From Rhizoclosmatium globosum (taxonomy: Eukaryota; Chytridiomycota; Chytridiomycetes; Chytridiales; Chytriomycetaceae), in contig MCGO01000057.1 of assembly GCA_002104985.1 (NCBI GenBank), positions 212,422-276,421 on the forward strand: 64,000 bases of DNA. The letters run 5' to 3'. Positions 56,012 to 64,000 of the stretch are shown in pieces. Under the pieces are notes generated by a model. It searched no databases and was not told where the DNA came from. It worked only from the letters and a program-made list of their open reading frames with translations. Position 1 is the stretch's first letter. Each line of letters begins with the position of its first letter. The translations under genes and the position numbers were made by a program.

Positions 56012-56580
56012 CGATTTGATTGAGATTCGTGCACAGAACGAATCGGGTGGCCTTTCCAGCTGTTAAAACAACATATTTCTGGGTTTACTTCGCTGTATGA
56101 AGTAAGCGACAGTGGATGCCCATTTTCCGCGTTGGTTGTCTGATAAAACGGGTTTAAGTCCCAATTGGGCACTCGTATAAATCTGATGGTATTAAAATAT
56201 GGTTGTTAACAGTTTCCTCTGTTTCAGTTGTTCGTTGAGAATATCGTTTTGAGTCACAACCCAAATTGGTGCAGAATTACCTCTTCCTTTTCTTTCACCG
56301 GATAAATCAGATGGGGTTTTCTGTCTCCGGTTCAAGATCACAAATTCTTCCAAAATGTTGATGGAGCAACAGATGATGCAGACTGCGTCCTCCTCGCGCC
56401 CGGTAGTGTGGGAGCTGCCTTTCCCCCAATACTTAATTGTTACCCCGTCTAGGTTATTGAGTGTACTATTGTTAAAGTTCCAACTCATGGCCACACCACT
56501 TTCTTGACACAAGACACTATGGCGGCATTAGGAGTTTCCGATGGGTAGATAACTCAATTCTTTTCTCTTTCACTTAACAA
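56012..56580. other. Intergenic transition region before the subtelomeric segment
   Basis: 569 bp. A minus-strand open frame (56,192-56,512) contains a plausible stretch (ILEEFVILNRRQKTPSDL), but I recognise no domain and see no support from splicing. Nothing else recognised. Confidence 0.4.
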
Positions 56581-56583
56581 GTA

Positions 56584-57170
56584 AAGTAGAGAATGTATCC
56601 TTGTCACGGGCCAAGAAAATCGTTGCACTGTTTTGACAGTCGAAAAAAGGAAGATGAAGGTTCATCATGGTATCTCACTTTCTAGTGAATCGTTGGATAA
56701 CCTTTCAGTCTCTGTTGGCAACACTGTTTTTGTAAAGAGTGTTCCAGTGTCTCATGGACGTGTTGTGGAGTTCATGCTGTCAGTAGAGAATGAAGTTGAT
56801 GTTGATAATCCAAAGAAAATGCTTGAAGACTTCTTCAAAACAAATTTGAGACCTGTACATTCTGGTAATACTGTTGCCATCCAAGGATGTCTTTTTGTGG
56901 TCAAATCTTGTGATCCTTCTCCTTACTGTCTTGTAGGTTTAATATATCTACAAACATTAAGAATTAACCCCTTTCCAGATTGACAGTGACACTTCTGTGT
57001 TGTTTTTGCCTGAAAGCTCAAAAAAGGAAGATGAATTGTATCTGGACAATGACTTACCTGCTGTGATTGAAACTGAGGATAAAGACCGTCTGTGGAAGGC
57101 ATTTTATGCCTCCAAAGCTGTATATGAAGATAATCTAGGGTTAGGGTTAGGGTTAGGGTTGTTTTTTTGA
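56584..57170 (+). pseudogene. CDC48-like AAA ATPase N-terminal domain, truncated at telomere repeats
   Basis: Joined over one intron (about 56,932-56,978), the frame reads NRCTVLTVEKRKMKVHHG, LDNLSVSVGNTVFVK, HGRVVEFMLSV, FKTNLRPVHSGNTVAIQG, VVKSCDPSPYCLIDSDT and SKKEDELYLDND. This parallels Cdc48/p97: NLRVRLGD, RPxRKGD, DPSPYCIVAPDT and the KREDEE linker. The first D1 ATPase residues should follow, but the frame instead enters four TTAGGG units (57,136-57,160), read as LGLGLG, and stops at 57,168-57,170. The ATPase modules are therefore absent. The 5' end is not certain: no clear start codon was found. Confidence 0.6.
57136..57160 (+). repeat. Interstitial telomere repeat, left tract (TTAGGG)4
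   Basis: Four units of TTAGGG on the plus strand (tagggttagggttagggttagggtt). They begin directly where the CDC48-like reading frame loses similarity and end directly at the T-run of the retroelement. The G-rich strand points to the right, so this was once a right-hand chromosome end. Confidence 0.97.
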
Positions 57171-57259
57171 ACATTCTTTATTCCGTGGATACCAACAGAG
57201 TTTAGGTTAGAATAAGATTGAAAAGCAAGAGTCAAAAGCAGATAGAGTTGCTAGAGTAT

Positions 57260-59440
57260 TTAGAGTTGGCGAAGGAATACAAGTCGATTGTAGGCAAATA
57301 CAAGATCGTTCTTGGCTAGGGCTTTGGTGACGAGAGGATCTGGCCGGTGGGCAAGAGACAAGTTGTGGCGAACAAGAGCAGACTGTTGTGCAGCTGTAAG
57401 TTGAGTGTGTTTAAGAACGTTTGCCATTCCTGAAAAGGGTTTGAAGATAATGTGCTTAAATTGCTGGTTCGAGTGGATTTCTTGGTTGCGGAAGTATCGT
57501 TTGATGGCGGTTTTCAAGTCAAGTTCGTCGGATTGATGGAAGTACATACGAATTTGGTTGACGAGAGGCAAGTGTCGAAGAAAGGTTGTGAGAGTACAAG
57601 CAGCAGGTGAAAGTGTAGGGATAAGTGTTGGAGGCTTTGCGGCTAGAAGGGCGACAAGGTAGTTGGCACGATCGCGGTACGTCTGGATTCCAAGTAGGTA
57701 GCGGACTTGCGGAGATGGCACAGGCAGAGGCAGGTGTTGTTGAAATGGCTTAAAGATCCACTGGCAGACAGAGTTGATGAGTGTAGTACCAAGATAGTCT
57801 AGAGAAGAGAGCTGCTGTTGGGTAAGTACAGCCATTGCAAGAGGAGTGGCATATTCCCATCGTGAACGGATAAGCGAGAAGAATATGTTTCGGCGGTGGT
57901 GGGGATGCCAAAAGCGAGCGAAAGGCGAGTTCGAGAGTTTCTGGAAGGTTTTACGAGCTTGGTGAATCTTGCCAGTGTAGTACTGGTAGAACAAGGGGCC
58001 TGAAGTAGAAATGTTGATACCAAGGTATTTGTGAGAGTTAGTGTTGGCAATTTGAGTGTTGTTGTAGATGAGGGCGGGACCAGAGTAGTTGATAGTAAAG
58101 CACTTAGTTGGAGAGAGGGACATGCGATTCTGTTGGCACCAGCGGGAGATTTCGGTAAAGGCAATTTGAAGATTTTCGTTGGAGTTTGTTCTGACGGCCG
58201 CATCATCGGCAAAGAGTGATGCAGGAGTGTTGCCTCTGTGGGGGGAAAGGGTGTTGTCTAAGAGATGGGCAAGGTTGTTGATGAAGATGTTGAAGAGAAG
58301 TGGGGCTAAGGTAGAGCCTTGTGGGAGGCCACGGCTGCGGCGGATTGTACGAGAGAGTTTGGAGTTGATGCAGATTTTGGTAAAAGTGGTGGAGAAGAGT
58401 TGATGGATGGCTGCAAGGAGTTGTAGAAGAATGGGACAGTGACCGGTGGAGCGAATGTTTTGTTCAAGTTTGAAGAGGAGGATGTGGATGTCAACGGTGT
58501 CGTAGGCTTTGTGGAAGTCGAGAAGGAGTGTTCGAGTGGACTGGTGGGAAGTGTTGGCGGCCCAATTCAGGTTACAGATAGTTGAGCAATTTTTGACGAA
58601 ACCCTGTTGGCTAGGGTGGAGGGAGGTGAACTGTTTTAGATATACAAGAAGATGTTTTTCGTAGAGGAGACGGAGGATGTTACTAAGACCAATGGGACGG
58701 AAGTCGAGGAGAGACGGGTTTGCTGGCGGGGTGCTTGATTTCGGGATAAGGACTGTGGTGAAGGCTTTCCATTGTTCGGGGATAATTCCAGAGACAAAGA
58801 TTTGATTAAACATGGCAGATAGAAGGTCGGGAAGGTCGGTTGTGAGGCAGAGGTGTTTCAAGAGATCGATGGATATACTGTCGGGACCAGAGGCTTTGTG
58901 GAGGGGGTGTTTTTCGATTATGTTGGTGACTTGCTGCGGCGTGGAGAATTCAAAGTTTTGGGGCAGTGGAGGTGGTTGTTCATTGTCAGGGAAAGGGTGT
59001 GGCGGTTCAGAGTAGTTGGGGTCAGCTGAGGCAAATAATTTGTGGAAGGATGTACGAGCATTTTCTAGAAGTTCTTTGGACGGTGTAAATGGTGGCGGTT
59101 TCTGATGGAGGGATTTCTGGGCTTGGCGGATGGCTTCTGTGGTGGAGACAGGAGGTTTAATAGGTGGATTCTTGGGATTGGTTTTGGGGTCAGAGGATGA
59201 AATTTTGGAAATGAAAGGGTCATAGAGATCAAGGGCAATTGAACGAAGTTTGTCAGTGAGTTGGTTGTAGATTTCGTTGATGAGATGTTGGGAGTTATTT
59301 GGGGATGTTGGAGGGGAAATGGTGTTGCGAAAGAGGGGGGTGTAGTGTTGTGGTAGTAGATTGAGGCGAGGTTGACGGCGGTAGTTTATGCGAGAAGAGT
59401 ATTGAGGGATAAAGGCTTGGGCTTTATTGATCATTGGCAT
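57260..59440 (-). CDS. Non-LTR retrotransposon reverse transcriptase (ORF2)
   Basis: 726 residues, uninterrupted. An N-terminal region of ~170 residues, Pro/Ser/Asn-rich, is followed by RT blocks: IIEKHPLHKASGPDSISIDLL, GIIPEQWKAFTTVLIPK, DFRPIGLSNILRLLYEK, QGFVKNCST, LLLDFHKAYDTVD, RSRGLPQGSTLAPLLFNIFI, SLFADDAAV with the catalytic Asp pair (complement of 58,196-58,213), and ISRWCQQNRMSLSPTKC with the KYLGI block. The C-terminal ~230 residues (SRWEYATPLAMAVL..., YLLGIQTYRDRANYLV) are typical of LINE ends. No apurinic-type endonuclease lies before RT and no CCHC or restriction-like endonuclease is obvious after it. The frame stays open without an ATG to 59,520, so a 5'-truncated parent remains possible. 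ORF intact, so recently active. Confidence 0.95.
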   Translation of the reverse strand: MPMINKAQAFIPQYSSRINYRRQPRLNLLPQHYTPLFRNTISPPTSPNNSQHLINEIYNQLTDKLRSIALDLYDPFISKISSSDPKTNPKNPPIKPPVSTTEAIRQAQKSLHQKPPPFTPSKELLENARTSFHKLFASADPNYSEPPHPFPDNEQPPPLPQNFEFSTPQQVTNIIEKHPLHKASGPDSISIDLLKHLCLTTDLPDLLSAMFNQIFVSGIIPEQWKAFTTVLIPKSSTPPANPSLLDFRPIGLSNILRLLYEKHLLVYLKQFTSLHPSQQGFVKNCSTICNLNWAANTSHQSTRTLLLDFHKAYDTVDIHILLFKLEQNIRSTGHCPILLQLLAAIHQLFSTTFTKICINSKLSRTIRRSRGLPQGSTLAPLLFNIFINNLAHLLDNTLSPHRGNTPASLFADDAAVRTNSNENLQIAFTEISRWCQQNRMSLSPTKCFTINYSGPALIYNNTQIANTNSHKYLGINISTSGPLFYQYYTGKIHQARKTFQKLSNSPFARFWHPHHRRNIFFSLIRSRWEYATPLAMAVLTQQQLSSLDYLGTTLINSVCQWIFKPFQQHLPLPVPSPQVRYLLGIQTYRDRANYLVALLAAKPPTLIPTLSPAACTLTTFLRHLPLVNQIRMYFHQSDELDLKTAIKRYFRNQEIHSNQQFKHIIFKPFSGMANVLKHTQLTAAQQSALVRHNLSLAHRPDPLVTKALAKNDLVFAYNRLVFLRQL

Positions 59441-59525
59441 GAGAGTTGTTAGACTGAGTAGAAGACATGGTAGGAGGGGCAGTGTTGGAATTCGTTTGAG
59501 TGTTGCTGGCAGTTTCTTCGCTCAT
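59424..59525 (-). CDS. Short ORF1 of the retroelement (33 aa)
   Basis: From the ATG at 59,525: MSEETASNTQTNSNTAPP... ending NDQ and a TAA at 59,424. Its last 17 bases overlap the start of ORF2 (ATG at 59,440). The stop-start overlap resembles termination-reinitiation arrangements of LINEs. Ser/Thr/Asn-rich, no domain. Could be incidental. Confidence 0.4.
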   Translation of the reverse strand: MSEETASNTQTNSNTAPPTMSSTQSNNSHANDQ

Positions 59526-59531
59526 TTCAAC

Positions 59532-59562
59532 TTAGGGTAGGGTCAGGATTAGGGTTAGGGTT
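59532..59562 (+). repeat. Interstitial telomere-like repeats, right tract (with variants)
   Basis: ttagggtagggtcaggattagggttagggtt: two perfect TTAGGG units and degenerate units (TAGGG, TCAGGA). Same strand and direction as the left tract. Another TTAGGG-like unit occurs at ~59,740-59,752 and a weaker one at ~59,893. Confidence 0.9.
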
Positions 59563-59613
59563 CTATACTGTTGGATTAAAAAGAGTTTGTAACGTCAGAC
59601 CAAGAGAGGAAAA

Positions 59614-62600
59614 ATGAGTGAAACCCAAAGGTGAGTATGAGTCTGCTTGAGTTGTGTGTATCTCGAAACGGAGAGAGTTGTACATCAGGATGCAACTTAT
59701 GATCCGACAAAGATTTTGGATGCCTGAGTGGGCTGAAGGGGTTAGGGTTATGCCAAGGGGGGTTTCTTTGTGTTAGGTGATGGTGGGATGGTGTTGGTTG
59801 TATGTGCTGTGGGTGGTTGTGTTGGGAGGTTGGTTCATCAAATCATAGCCCTTGAAGGACTCCATCTATTCATCCCTTCAAAAGCCCCATATCTTTAGGG
59901 TTAAATAAGGCATTGTTATCCTTTCTGATTATCCTTCATTGATCATCAGACTTTAAATCCTTTTTACTAACTACCACACTTTCCAACAATAGATCAGAAC
60001 GAGAATGTTCCATGGAAGAGTGCAAGGACGTTCCTGCCTTTAGCAACAAGTATGCATTGGCAAAACATGGGAGGATGGTTCACCAGCGAGTTGTTTCTGT
60101 TCGATATTGGATCAATGACTACACACGTAAGTTCTTTTGAAAGAAAACATAAATAACACATCTTAATTTAGAGGAAGATGTACTCACAATTATTCCAAGA
60201 GATTCAGACAACAACATGTTCAACTGCATCAAGTGTGACCTTGCTGTAAGCCATCCAGAGAAGCTCCAGAATCATGTCAGAAAGGCAAAGTGTGGCTTGA
60301 CTCATCCTGCCATATTTGGGTTCATGTGCTTGGATTGTGCCTATGTTTGTGTTACAGAGAATGGCATCAGGGTTCACTGTCGTAACAAGCATCCAAAGAA
60401 TCCATACTGGGGATACAGGCCAACCAAAGTGACAAAAGTTCACACTCGTGTCTACAGAATGTATAACCCAGAGGAAGGCTTTGATGCCAAGATGAGAGCC
60501 AAGGAACTCAAAAGCTTTGCCCGTAAACAGAAGAAGATTAAAAACACTGCTGGATCACGTTCAAAAGCTTATTTATCCACTGGATTGGAAACTGCTGGTT
60601 TGATTGCCTCTTCAAGCAAAACAAACACTCCGTTCTTGAATAATGTATGTCTTTTGTTTTCCTGTGGGTCCATTACTTACTCTATGTGAAATAGATGGGA
60701 TGGGACAAGTTGGTGTTTGGTGTTGATGCAATCAAGAATCCAGCCAACTACATTGCCATATTGAATGAGACAAAAGACACAAAGGCCATTGTAATTCTGT
60801 GTCGTTTATTTTTGGAGAAAGTCAATGAGTTGGCAACTCTGCCTGGAACCCAACCAACCCGCACTGCAATCAAGAATGCTGGCCGTAAATCAACAAATGA
60901 CTCTGGATATGCAGGAAAGGCTTTCAAGCCTATTGATGTCAAAACTACTATCCCAGCATACGCTAGAACACTTGGAGTATTTGTAACCATGTTGATTGCT
61001 CGTAAGCAGGGTTCCAACACAAGAACAAAGATGCCAATGCTAAGTAATGAGATCAACAGAGCTGTTGAGGGATTCTTGGAGGCCCTTGATGTTCCTCTCC
61101 TTTGCAGAACAAATGCAGTCTTTGAGAATCAGCAAGAAGCTCTGATCAAATTGCTGCGAATTGTCTTGTTTGAAGATATTGGATTTGAAGGTCTGAACAC
61201 AAGTCAAATCCATTTGGTGGAGGAGTACTTGTTGCTTAGATTCCTGCAACCTGATGGTACTTTTTGCAAGGAACAGCTCATGACTGGGCCATGTACTCAT
61301 TTTTTGTTTACTTGTCGTTGTCTTGTCTTGGAATGGTGTCAAGAAATTGCTTCTTTTGGAACTTGGATGAGTAGAGCCGAGAAGGAAAAGTGAGTTTTTT
61401 GTATTTGTCTGCTCTTTCTAAATATGTTTAAAACAAGGGAAATCAATCAAGTTATTGAGCTTGTCAGCTATGGGAAGCATAGTCTCCCTTATGCCAAAAT
61501 GAAGCAATTCAAGTCCACATGTGGATTGATCATGATGGGCAGTAATACAGCCAATCTCATTAGCAAGCATTGGGATTACAGTTTGCCTAATGAGCCAAAG
61601 TTGGTTATCGATGGGCGCTTGGGTGTTTCAAAGACCATGTTCCGGGAAGGTCGAGCAAACTACTTTAGAGTGATCACAACAGATCTCAGTAATTTGCTGT
61701 TTGGGATGGATGTTTCAGACTTCACGTTTGACCCAAAACGATTGACTGACAATGTCGCAAACTCAAGACCAGGCTACAGCTTCATGACAGAGCAAGCCAA
61801 CAGCTCTACATTTAATGAAGAAAATGGGAACAGACTTGAAATGCACATCAAAAAGACCAAGAACTTGAGGACTGAGTTTTTTGAGCCCACAAGACTTATC
61901 TACAAATCAGAGGCAATGGAGCTGTACACTGGTATTTTGGTTCAATTTGCTGCATTCATCTGACCCTTTTCTTTCTCTTTTAGCAAAAGTGGACAACTTT
62001 ATTTCCATTTTGATGCTTGGTCTTGCATTGTTTTGTGGAATGCCTCCCAGAACAACAGAGTTTCAAATGACGACTATTGTGAATTCTGGGTTGGGAAAAA
62101 GGAACTTGATGATTCTTGAGCACAGATTATGCATCAACTTGAGGTAATTTGTGTCCTTGTTTGGAGTGATTTACTTAGCAACATGGTTTGAAAAAAGATA
62201 CAACAAATCAAGTGCAAACTCTGGATTTCATAAAGACTTATTTCGGTTTGTTCCAGATGAGCTAGCACAGATTCTTGTAAAGTATCTGGTCTTTGTTTAT
62301 CCACTCTATATGTAAGCACTTACTTGTATTGGTTGTGGTGACTACTTATGAAACAACAAAGTGCATTCTGGGCTGACATAAGAATCCGCAAGAAGCTGAC
62401 TTTCTTGACCCATGAAGATGAAATCCAAGCCAAAACTTATCTCTTTTTGAGAAACGGAATCCCTACCAAAGTATCCAAGCTACATGGCTTGTACATTCAA
62501 AACTTTTGGAATATTTTTGGAGTCAATCTGGGAATTCGACACACTCGACAAATGATGGCCTCATTTGCAGACAACATTGACTTTGAAGAAACTGCAGTGG

Positions 62601-63334
62601 CCAATGTAAATGTGACTGTTAGCAATCAATTTGGTCATAGCTCCCAAGTGCACCAAAATAATTATGGAGCAACAACTGATGGTGCAGCTATTATCCGCAA
62701 AATGAAGGCTATATCTGACAAGTGGTGGGAATGGTGCAGTTTGATTGGTGAGGCTGCTTCTTCAAGTAGTTCACCCGAGGCTGCAGCAGGAGCACAAACA
62801 GGATCTGGGTCAGCCTCTGGTTCCGTGGTGATTACAATCCAAGAGAGCAGTGAAGATGAAGAGAGTGGTAATTCAGTAGACGATATTGAGGACAATCAAG
62901 TTCATAGAGACAAGGAAGGTGATTATGAAAGAGAAGAGGGATTTGGTAGTATGGACGACTGTGTCATGGAAAATGAATTTGCGGTTGATAGTGACGGTGA
63001 TGTTTATGAAAGTGAACATGGTCAAAGTAACAGTGTCAATGAAAGTGAACATGGTCAAAGTAACAGTATGGATGAAAGTGAAGGTGGTGGTAGTGACAGT
63101 ATGGATGAAGTCAGAACAAATCAATCTGAGTTTACCAACAGTCAAGAAGTTTCAACTGGAAACAACCCACCACTTGATTCCATCTATACCAATGATCGTA
63201 ATGACCCATCACTTGCAAACTATTATGCAAGAATTGACAAGTTCTTGGAAGATCATGCAGAAATTCTTGGGTACAACAATACACTAAGTGAGGATGAAGC
63301 ATGGGCTACTGACTACAGTGACGTTAAAGATTGA
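59614..63334 (+). CDS. Subtelomeric zinc-finger protein with tyrosine-recombinase-like C-terminal half
   Basis: Eight exons, all joins frame-consistent: 59614-59630, 59993-60126, 60172-60644, 60695-61389, 61438-61931, 61984-62143, 62198-62312, 62363-63334. Three C2H2-type motifs lead: CSMEEC...HGRMVH, CIKCDL...HVRKAKC and CLDCAY...HCRNKH. The centre contains LLLRFLQPDGTFCKEQL and RLIYKSEAMELY, wording also met in telomere-linked helicase-like proteins of fungi, as far as I recall. The second half shows LFCGMPPRTTEF (compare tyrosine recombinase box I, GxRxxE), RYNKSS (Lys hairpin), GIRHTRQMM (compare LRHT) and FGHSSQVHQNNYG (compare GHSS...Y). An acidic Ser-rich tail with a repeated ESEHGQSNS motif ends at 63,334. 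Function unknown; the recombinase reading is inference. Confidence 0.65.
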
Positions 63335-63462
63335 AATTCAAACCATGTGCTTTGTTGTTTTCCTACTTTTCATTATTTCCTTCAATCATGCTTTCATCAC
63401 CTTTTAAGATTAACTCGTTTTTGTTTCGTGTTTATTCTTTGTTTCAAGACCTAAGTAAATAG
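63335..63462 (+). other. Short T-rich gap between subtelomeric ORFs
   Basis: 128 bp, T-rich. May be a 3' UTR or an intron joining the zinc-finger gene to the next ORF. No strong GT donor was chosen. Confidence 0.4.
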
Positions 63463-64000
63463 GATGAAATTGTCACGTCTTTATCGAGAAATTCATCATC
63501 ATTTGGGTCTCTTTATATCAGTCACTACTGAGAGCAATGATCAAACTGAAATAGGCTTGACAGTTAATATTCCAATGTTCTGTCAATTTGCAGCTGTTGT
63601 TCGCACCCAATTAACAACTTTGGTTTGGGATGGATTAGTTGCTGACTTGAAAGACAGTGGAAAAGTAACAGGTGAAATACTAGATGCTATGGTAGATGAA
63701 TTCAACATGCTTGCAGCCAAAGGCCAAGATATGACACTTTGGCACGGTAATGCCTTTGAACTACTTTCTCAAGTCAGCAACCGAAGAGCTACTGAAGCAG
63801 ATGACGAGGAAAATAGTGCAAGAATGAATGTTGCTGATCCTGTTGATGAATGGGGTGATGTTACTGATGAGCAAATGAATGAAGCATTGCAAGAAGCAAT
63901 TGAGTGTTACAGAAACAGTCAGAGCCCTCCTCATGGTCAGGCTGTTGGAAGAGGGGAAACACAGGAAGAATTGCTGGATGCTCTTGCCAGAATGGGGATG
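63463..64000 (+). CDS. Open reading frame running off the window (subtelomeric, function unknown)
   Basis: From the ATG at 63,463 (MKLSRLYREIHHHLGLFISV) the frame stays open to the last base, 179 codons. Segments: NIPMFCQFAAVVRTQLTTLV, AMVDEFNMLAAKGQDM, an acidic stretch (ADDEENSARMN) and EQMNEALQEAIECY. No stop seen, so the gene is 3'-partial. It follows the zinc-finger gene on the same strand and has similar base and codon use. In other fungi a RecQ-type helicase domain may come next; none is in view here. Confidence 0.55.

Follow-up and report, generated by a model that had tools for sequence, protein, structure and literature searches.

What placed a retroelement between two tracts of telomere repeat, with further sequence still beyond the outer one, is the question raised by the window, by which we mean the whole stretch of 64 kb analysed here, the last part of contig C374 (276,421 bases) of a chytrid genome of 56.9 Mb in 420 contigs. 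The first-pass annotation had described, on the plus strand, a TTAGGG tract, a T-run, an antisense element and a second TTAGGG-type tract, all in one direction, and this order is indeed found at 57135–59560. TTAGGG is the telomere repeat of this genome. Uninterrupted runs of four perfect units are found in 16 contigs, and in four array-bearing contigs of known length (C63, C357, C376 and C388) the array stops 16 bases or fewer from the contig end. A telomerase RNA-binding (TERT) domain is encoded on contig C190 (62.6 bits). In the window, TTAGGGTTAGGG with at most one mismatch occurs five times, compared with 0.19 expected from shuffles, and four of these matches lie at the two borders of the element.

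A truncated LINE between two telomeric tracts

The proximal flank (56100–57134, plus strand) is gene-like and single-copy, matching only itself in a genome search. Its open frame runs into the telomeric tract, where the gene-like sequence ends, and the same search returned no intact paralogue, a configuration from which we infer that the gene was broken and then healed at the tract. The tract itself, CTAGGG(TTAGGG)3TTG, occupies 57135–57161 on the plus strand (CTAGGGTTAGGGTTAGGGTTAGGGTTG) and is followed by seven T residues (57162–57168), the antisense of the A-run at the 3′ end of the element, which lies on the minus strand. A short 3′ UTR (57169–57259, minus strand) carries an AATAAA signal close to the A-run (antisense TTTATT, 57177–57182). 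ORF2 (57260–59440, minus strand) encodes a LINE-type reverse transcriptase (RT) of 726 residues from the first ATG, in which no endonuclease was found, and its frame is open to 59521, giving 753 residues. The RVT_1 domain spans residues 271–504 of this longer frame (58010–58711, minus strand; Pfam 98.6 bits, E 5.2e-28). The last codons of ORF1 (59424–59531, minus strand) overlap ORF2, and the element is truncated at 59531, where a distal telomeric tract, TTAGGGTAGGGTCAGGATTAGGGTTAGGG, is joined to the 5′ truncation (59532–59560, plus strand).

We refer to all copies that share the 3′ end of this LINE as family A. Six of them (C13, C51b, C35b, C371, C395 and C62) have element sequence where the window has its distal tract, and extend past the position equivalent to 59531 into ORF1; the window copy is therefore 5′-truncated, and the possibility that its 2.4 kb unit is the whole element was rejected. 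None of the family A copies is certain to be full-length, and two pieces of ORF1 scanned with Pfam gave no family above cut-off. An RT of the RVT_1 family, a defined 3′ end with an A-run and variable 5′ truncation identify family A as a non-LTR retrotransposon. The earlier description of an element bounded by telomeric tracts thus holds in that both borders are of TTAGGG type, but it has to be amended, as the copy is incomplete and the contig continues past the distal tract for another 4.4 kb, this remainder being subtelomeric (59561–64000, plus strand) and starting with a recurrent edge, TTCTATACTGTTGGATTA. A P450 also encoded in the window points to a likely chytrid host, its closest matches being proteins of Siphonaria sp. 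(44% identity) and of Obelidium mucronatum (43%).

Family A copies face the same way near contig ends

A DNA search recovered 15 copies of family A genome-wide, and a 28-base 3′-end pattern allowing up to three mismatches returned the same 15 loci and none besides, the 28 bases being identical in every copy. A further 208-base piece containing ORF1 sequence only, 13 kb from the end of C395, has the same polarity. Copies far from contig ends, which would speak against telomere-end priming, were looked for and none was found. All 15 lie less than 22 kb from a contig end, the farthest 3′ end being at 21.6 kb, and zones of that depth cover no more than 32% of the genome (a hand calculation from 420 × 43.4 kb). 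Since assemblies break at repeats and so bring repeats to contig ends, we gave polarity more weight than proximity. A random orientation was likewise sought, and in all 14 copies whose direction could be read, the poly(A) 3′ end points inward and the 5′ end outward, the strand being minus for the eight copies at left ends and plus for the six at right ends. The C318 copy lies mid-contig and represents the same event as that of C366, while the C371 and C62 copies have a common flank. With these two pairs merged, 13 independent events remain, and in every one the 3′ end points inward (p = 0.0002 in a two-sided sign test calculated by hand).

That this regularity was created by the assembly, through contigs broken and misjoined at repeats near their ends, is hardly credible, because nine of the 15 copies sit 4–22 kb inside contigs with differing flanks and all 15 have the same 3′ terminus. 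Some contig ends are nonetheless noisy, with many single-base indels in C62, and the four-unit TTAGGG arrays are unevenly distributed between strands, with 15 contigs carrying them on the plus strand and one on the minus.

The T-run at the 3′ junction ranges from 7 to 18 bases across the 15 copies. An exact TTAGGG is present within the 60 bases before it in 14 copies, compared with 6 of 2747 background windows from the first 55 kb, and the sole exception is C395, where TTAGGG is absent from those 60 bases. In the C62 fragment (C62frag) one of the two TTAGGG matches sits in a TTCTATAC repeat, and in the C318/C366 event the TTAGGG before the T-run is the 3′ end of family B, another LINE of this genome. 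An element-blind pattern (TAGGGTT, 0–14 bases, eight T) matched 51 overlapping places at 15 loci, ten of which are family A junctions and five not; the reversed pattern matched ten places. The uniform polarity and the frequency of TTAGGG at the 3′ junction lend support to the telomere-end priming proposed in the first-pass annotation, with priming and capping as its deduced steps.

Probable healed breaks and the 5′ junctions

The 5′ junction is readable in ten copies, corresponding to nine events, and in the other five copies the contig ends within the element. Five events (C374, C371, C51a, C51b and C389) enter TTAGGG-type repeats within four bases, at five different truncation points. The clearest is C371, in which tract, T-run, element and truncation are followed by 87 bases of TTAGGG-type repeats and then the contig end, and in C51 two copies stand head to tail with TTAGGG-type repeats in between. 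The remaining four events have no TTAGGG joint: C35a, C35b and C62frag join sequence starting TTCTATACT directly, and C318/C366 joins a different sequence.

The proximal flanks of C35a and C35b record breaks. The first is a family B element broken inside its RT, then TTAGGG; the second is a subtelomeric block present unbroken in the window, which ends at GACGTTCCT (region of window position 60027) and continues with TAGGGTTAGGG before the element begins. Both orders are compatible with breakage, healing and subsequent addition of the element, the events being undated. Family B is also joined to TTAGGG at an arbitrary break point in C63, and the idea that every junction between TTAGGG and an element records retrotransposition was rejected on the arbitrary break points in C63, C35a, C35b and C376. 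Because family B and the subtelomeric block join TTAGGG at arbitrary points, a TTAGGG border is by itself no proof of priming, and we therefore counted the constant 3′ terminus with its A-run as the sole evidence for it.

This terminus also bears on whether break-induced replication or telomere-driven repair passively moved a few old insertions between ends while preserving their polarity. The two duplicate pairs (C371/C62 and C318/C366) and the subtelomeric blocks common to several contig ends are what such spread would produce, and a telomere-driven process that captures subterminal sequence has been described in Pyricularia (PMC8381367). Copying from breaks, however, predicts that both borders fall at arbitrary points, which is the pattern of family B at C63, whereas family A presents 13 different proximal flanks and T-runs of varying length, and its junctions almost all show one and the same 3′ terminus. 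We regard passive spread as a very improbable source of the family A distribution. A tRNA search of the TTCTATAC block found none at default settings and many low-score candidates at a lowered threshold.

A conserved reverse transcriptase and the search for an endonuclease

With the window frame as reference, ORF2 was compared in 12 further copies; the remaining two, C389 and C62frag, were too short. The 98 distinct substitutions fall 21, 12 and 65 on the three codon positions; 64 are synonymous (30.2 expected), 34 change an amino acid (64.8 expected) and none creates a stop (3.0 expected). The RT of family A is under purifying selection. In ORF1, 32 substitutions comprise 18 synonymous changes, 13 amino-acid changes and one stop. 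Indels, many of a single base, occur in eight of the 12 compared copies, and some of them, as in C62, are likely assembly errors. Purifying selection implies that family A spread by means of a working RT, and that decay of a single copy does not account for the missing endonuclease.

A Pfam scan of ORF2 returned RVT_1 only above cut-off, with no endonuclease. An APE-type endonuclease was detected neither by Pfam nor by alignment nor in a structure model. In the alignment, family A and its relatives P0001–P0003 start where the N-terminal APE-like part of the longer relatives P0004, P0006 and P0013 ends, and the C-terminal Cys/His cluster of these three is also absent from ORF2 of family A. In the predicted structure (mean pLDDT 72), residues 1–158 form helices or are disordered, and the sheets that an APE endonuclease has are absent. 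A restriction-enzyme-like endonuclease was not found in a scan limited to general Pfam families, and the C-terminal part is helical in the predicted structure. A blank Pfam result is weak taken alone, because Pfam also passes over the APE part indicated by the alignment in P0004 and P0013.

A maximum-likelihood tree of 39 RTs places family A in a clade with the metagenome-derived P0001–P0003, P0124 and P0125 (support 100/100), and an earlier tree of 67 rows grouped it with P0001–P0003 (support 100); both are without named CRE, R1, Jockey or Penelope sequences, and neither assigns a named LINE clade. Pfam detected no endonuclease in the five clade relatives either. In these and in family A the RT starts at residues 147–174, and in 26 of the 32 other proteins measured it starts at residues 361–561; the six with an earlier start (P0009, P0126, P0128, P0130, P0131 and P0134) may be incomplete. 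By sequence and by fold, the best PDB matches of the family A RT are R2 and L1 ORF2p, the fold ranking giving E of about 1e-18 for these versus 1e-6 for telomerase in a comparison set without a Penelope sequence. Viral contigs scanned with the RT alignment yielded no relatives.

A second LINE with mostly opposite polarity

Family B carries an APE-type endonuclease (PF14529, 33.3 bits), and its RT is about 29% identical to that of family A. Among its 17 3′ ends found, 13 are directed toward the closer end of the contig or the telomere array there, two point away (C201 and C360) and two are not readable in direction (C55 and C318). TTAGGGTTAGG follows ACCG in 11 of the 13 3′ ends read, the search pattern having included the first TTAGG of TTAGGGTTAGG and not the second. 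The sequence after family B 3′ ends varied and was often not TTAGGG, so telomere targeting by this family can be suggested rather than read from its junctions. The polarity of family B is mostly the one expected of a nick in the C-strand, and that of family A is the one expected of a free G-strand 3′ end.

The two families together bear on an alternative in which family A enters telomeric arrays by ordinary target-primed reverse transcription. The G-strand would be nicked by an unrecognised nuclease, whether encoded by family A itself, by another element or by the host, much as MoTeR or SART insert with their own endonuclease. TTAGGG is present on both sides of the element, as in MoTeR and FoTeR, and an APE-type endonuclease is encoded in this genome by family B; an enzyme that is unrecognised or acts in trans is conceivable, as the APE part overlooked by Pfam in P0004 and P0013 illustrates. 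Yet neither ORF2 nor the two scanned pieces of ORF1 contains a recognisable endonuclease, and, since family B polarity implies a C-strand nick, a borrowed nick would give family A the same polarity, which is not seen. We therefore consider array insertion unlikely. Reading family A as primed at the chromosome end gains support from both the undetected endonuclease and the mostly opposite polarity of family B.

Proposed route of addition

A chromosome end offers one 3′-OH without a cut, the 3′ end of the G-strand, and the polarity of family A is the polarity that this primer dictates. As family A occurs only near contig ends, with its tail inward and nearly always against TTAGGG, it likely copies itself onto open chromosome tips. 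We propose, as the probable explanation of these arrangements, that family A is a LINE without detectable endonuclease, primed by the G-rich 3′ end of the chromosome, and that its cDNA is capped by telomerase. An overhang ending in or near T would pair with the poly(A) tail of the element RNA, and the RT would start at the overhang and copy the RNA, often stopping early. Telomerase, a TERT domain of which is encoded in this genome, would then add new TTAGGG repeats to the 3′ end of the cDNA, which it could extend because the cDNA would already be the G-strand, and the C-strand would be filled in by normal replication. Overhang priming and telomerase capping are both deduced here from the order of junctions.

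A broader and more tentative extension, which we would not yet favour, is that a whole LINE clade lacks an endonuclease and uses open ends as primers. In this fungus the ends would then be built in turns by telomerase, by family A and by the fixed-edge subtelomeric block (TTCTATAC), the 3′ end of each being joined first to whatever was added before it. Family B, with its endonuclease and opposite polarity, would act on the other strand of these telomeres, making a mixed system of telomerase and retrotransposon that stands half way to that of Drosophila.

Comparison with known telomeric elements

MoTeR of Pyricularia oryzae and FoTeR of Fusarium oxysporum are telomeric CRE-type LINEs (PMC12857005, PMC7367193) and, as the cited excerpts describe them, resemble family A in several respects: the 5′ end faces the end of the chromosome, the borders are of TTAGGG, truncated copies sit on telomere repeats, and head-to-tail pairs have TTAGGG between them. 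They differ in carrying a C-terminal restriction-enzyme-like endonuclease, none having been detected in family A, and MoTeR1, in the same excerpts, has telomere-like repeats of its own at one end, which were not seen here. TRAS and SART, known from the silkworm and other insects, occupy silkworm telomeres in opposite orientations (PMC10088271) and are, like A and B, two telomeric LINE families of opposite orientation in one genome; their ORF2 endonuclease recognises telomeric repeats, whereas here an endonuclease is found in B only. Thus the telomere-targeting LINEs compared (MoTeR, FoTeR, TRAS and SART) bring their own endonuclease. Endonuclease-independent insertion of L1 at telomeres (Morrish 2007, in PMC4700185) resembles family A in that a LINE RT adds sequence without use of an endonuclease; the excerpt places it in repair-deficient mammalian cells, whereas family A is a natural family under selection. 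Family A would seem to work like MoTeR and FoTeR and also like endonuclease-independent telomeric L1, except that the endonuclease carried by those LINE families was not detected in it. A literature search covering few subscription journals returned, among the matches listed, neither telomeric LINEs of chytrids nor natural endonuclease-free LINEs at telomeres.

The Penelope-like elements Athena and Coprina are endonuclease-deficient and located at telomeres. They share with family A the lack of an endonuclease and the association with telomeres; they are of Penelope type, whereas the nearest solved relatives of family A are the LINE proteins R2 and L1. HeT-A, TART and TAHRE of Drosophila (PMC5537684) attach with the A-run inward and the 5′ end outward in successive additions to chromosome ends. 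Family A has the same arrangement, but the Drosophila elements replace telomerase repeats, whereas this genome has TTAGGG arrays and encodes a TERT domain. Because A and B point in opposite directions within a single genome, the question of the primer can be tested directly. If the proposed route is correct, a LINE lineage can persist on nothing more than open chromosome ends, and family A would be a natural form of the endonuclease-independent L1 events known from mammalian cells deficient in repair. It would also be a plausible intermediate between telomeres maintained by telomerase and those maintained by retrotransposons.

A subtelomeric block with a fixed edge

The subtelomeric sequence beyond the distal tract begins with TTCTATACTSTTGGATTA (59561–59578 in the window), and a pattern search allowing up to one mismatch found 119 sites for this sequence in the genome. 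Among the matches listed (100 of 119), no minus-strand site is more than 22 kb away from its contig's left end, and a plus-strand site at C412:21391 is an apparent exception to this placement. The sequence forms the fixed edge of a block common over 1 kb to C42, C35a, C51a and C62 (contig numbers; a and b distinguish separate family A copies on one contig), and upstream of the edge lies either TTAGGG or, directly, a 5′-truncated family A copy. The block so edged is possibly a second end-attaching unit. A stack of three pieces, all of one polarity, occupies C62:72060–72160 (locus L023), where roughly 25 bases from the TTCTATAC block come first, then some 65 bases of family A including the T-run, and finally another TTCTATACT sequence.

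The distal block carries a plus-strand gene, apparently with one or more introns (59981–63334), and broken sequence related to it is found on C35. Cys/His-rich stretches are present in this gene, as is a 33-base tandem repeat (63006–63109).

Family B and TTAGGG-continued cuts

The 3′ end of family B, the LINE with an APE-type endonuclease (loci L050, L051, L053 and L055–L066), is ACCG-TTAGGGTTAGG, and these ends mostly face the contig ends.

Sequences cut at arbitrary points and then continued by TTAGGG were found at loci L006 (end of C63), L062 (end of C376), L012 and L016. At C63 and C35a it is family B that is interrupted in this way, and at C376 and C35b a subtelomeric block; the window carries the stretches cut at C376 and C35b in unbroken form. 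Of the 16 contigs genome-wide that have arrays of four perfect TTAGGG units, 15 carry them on the plus strand and one on the minus strand, an imbalance that looks like an effect of assembly or trimming. The cuts at C63, C35a, C376 and C35b look like healed chromosome breaks.
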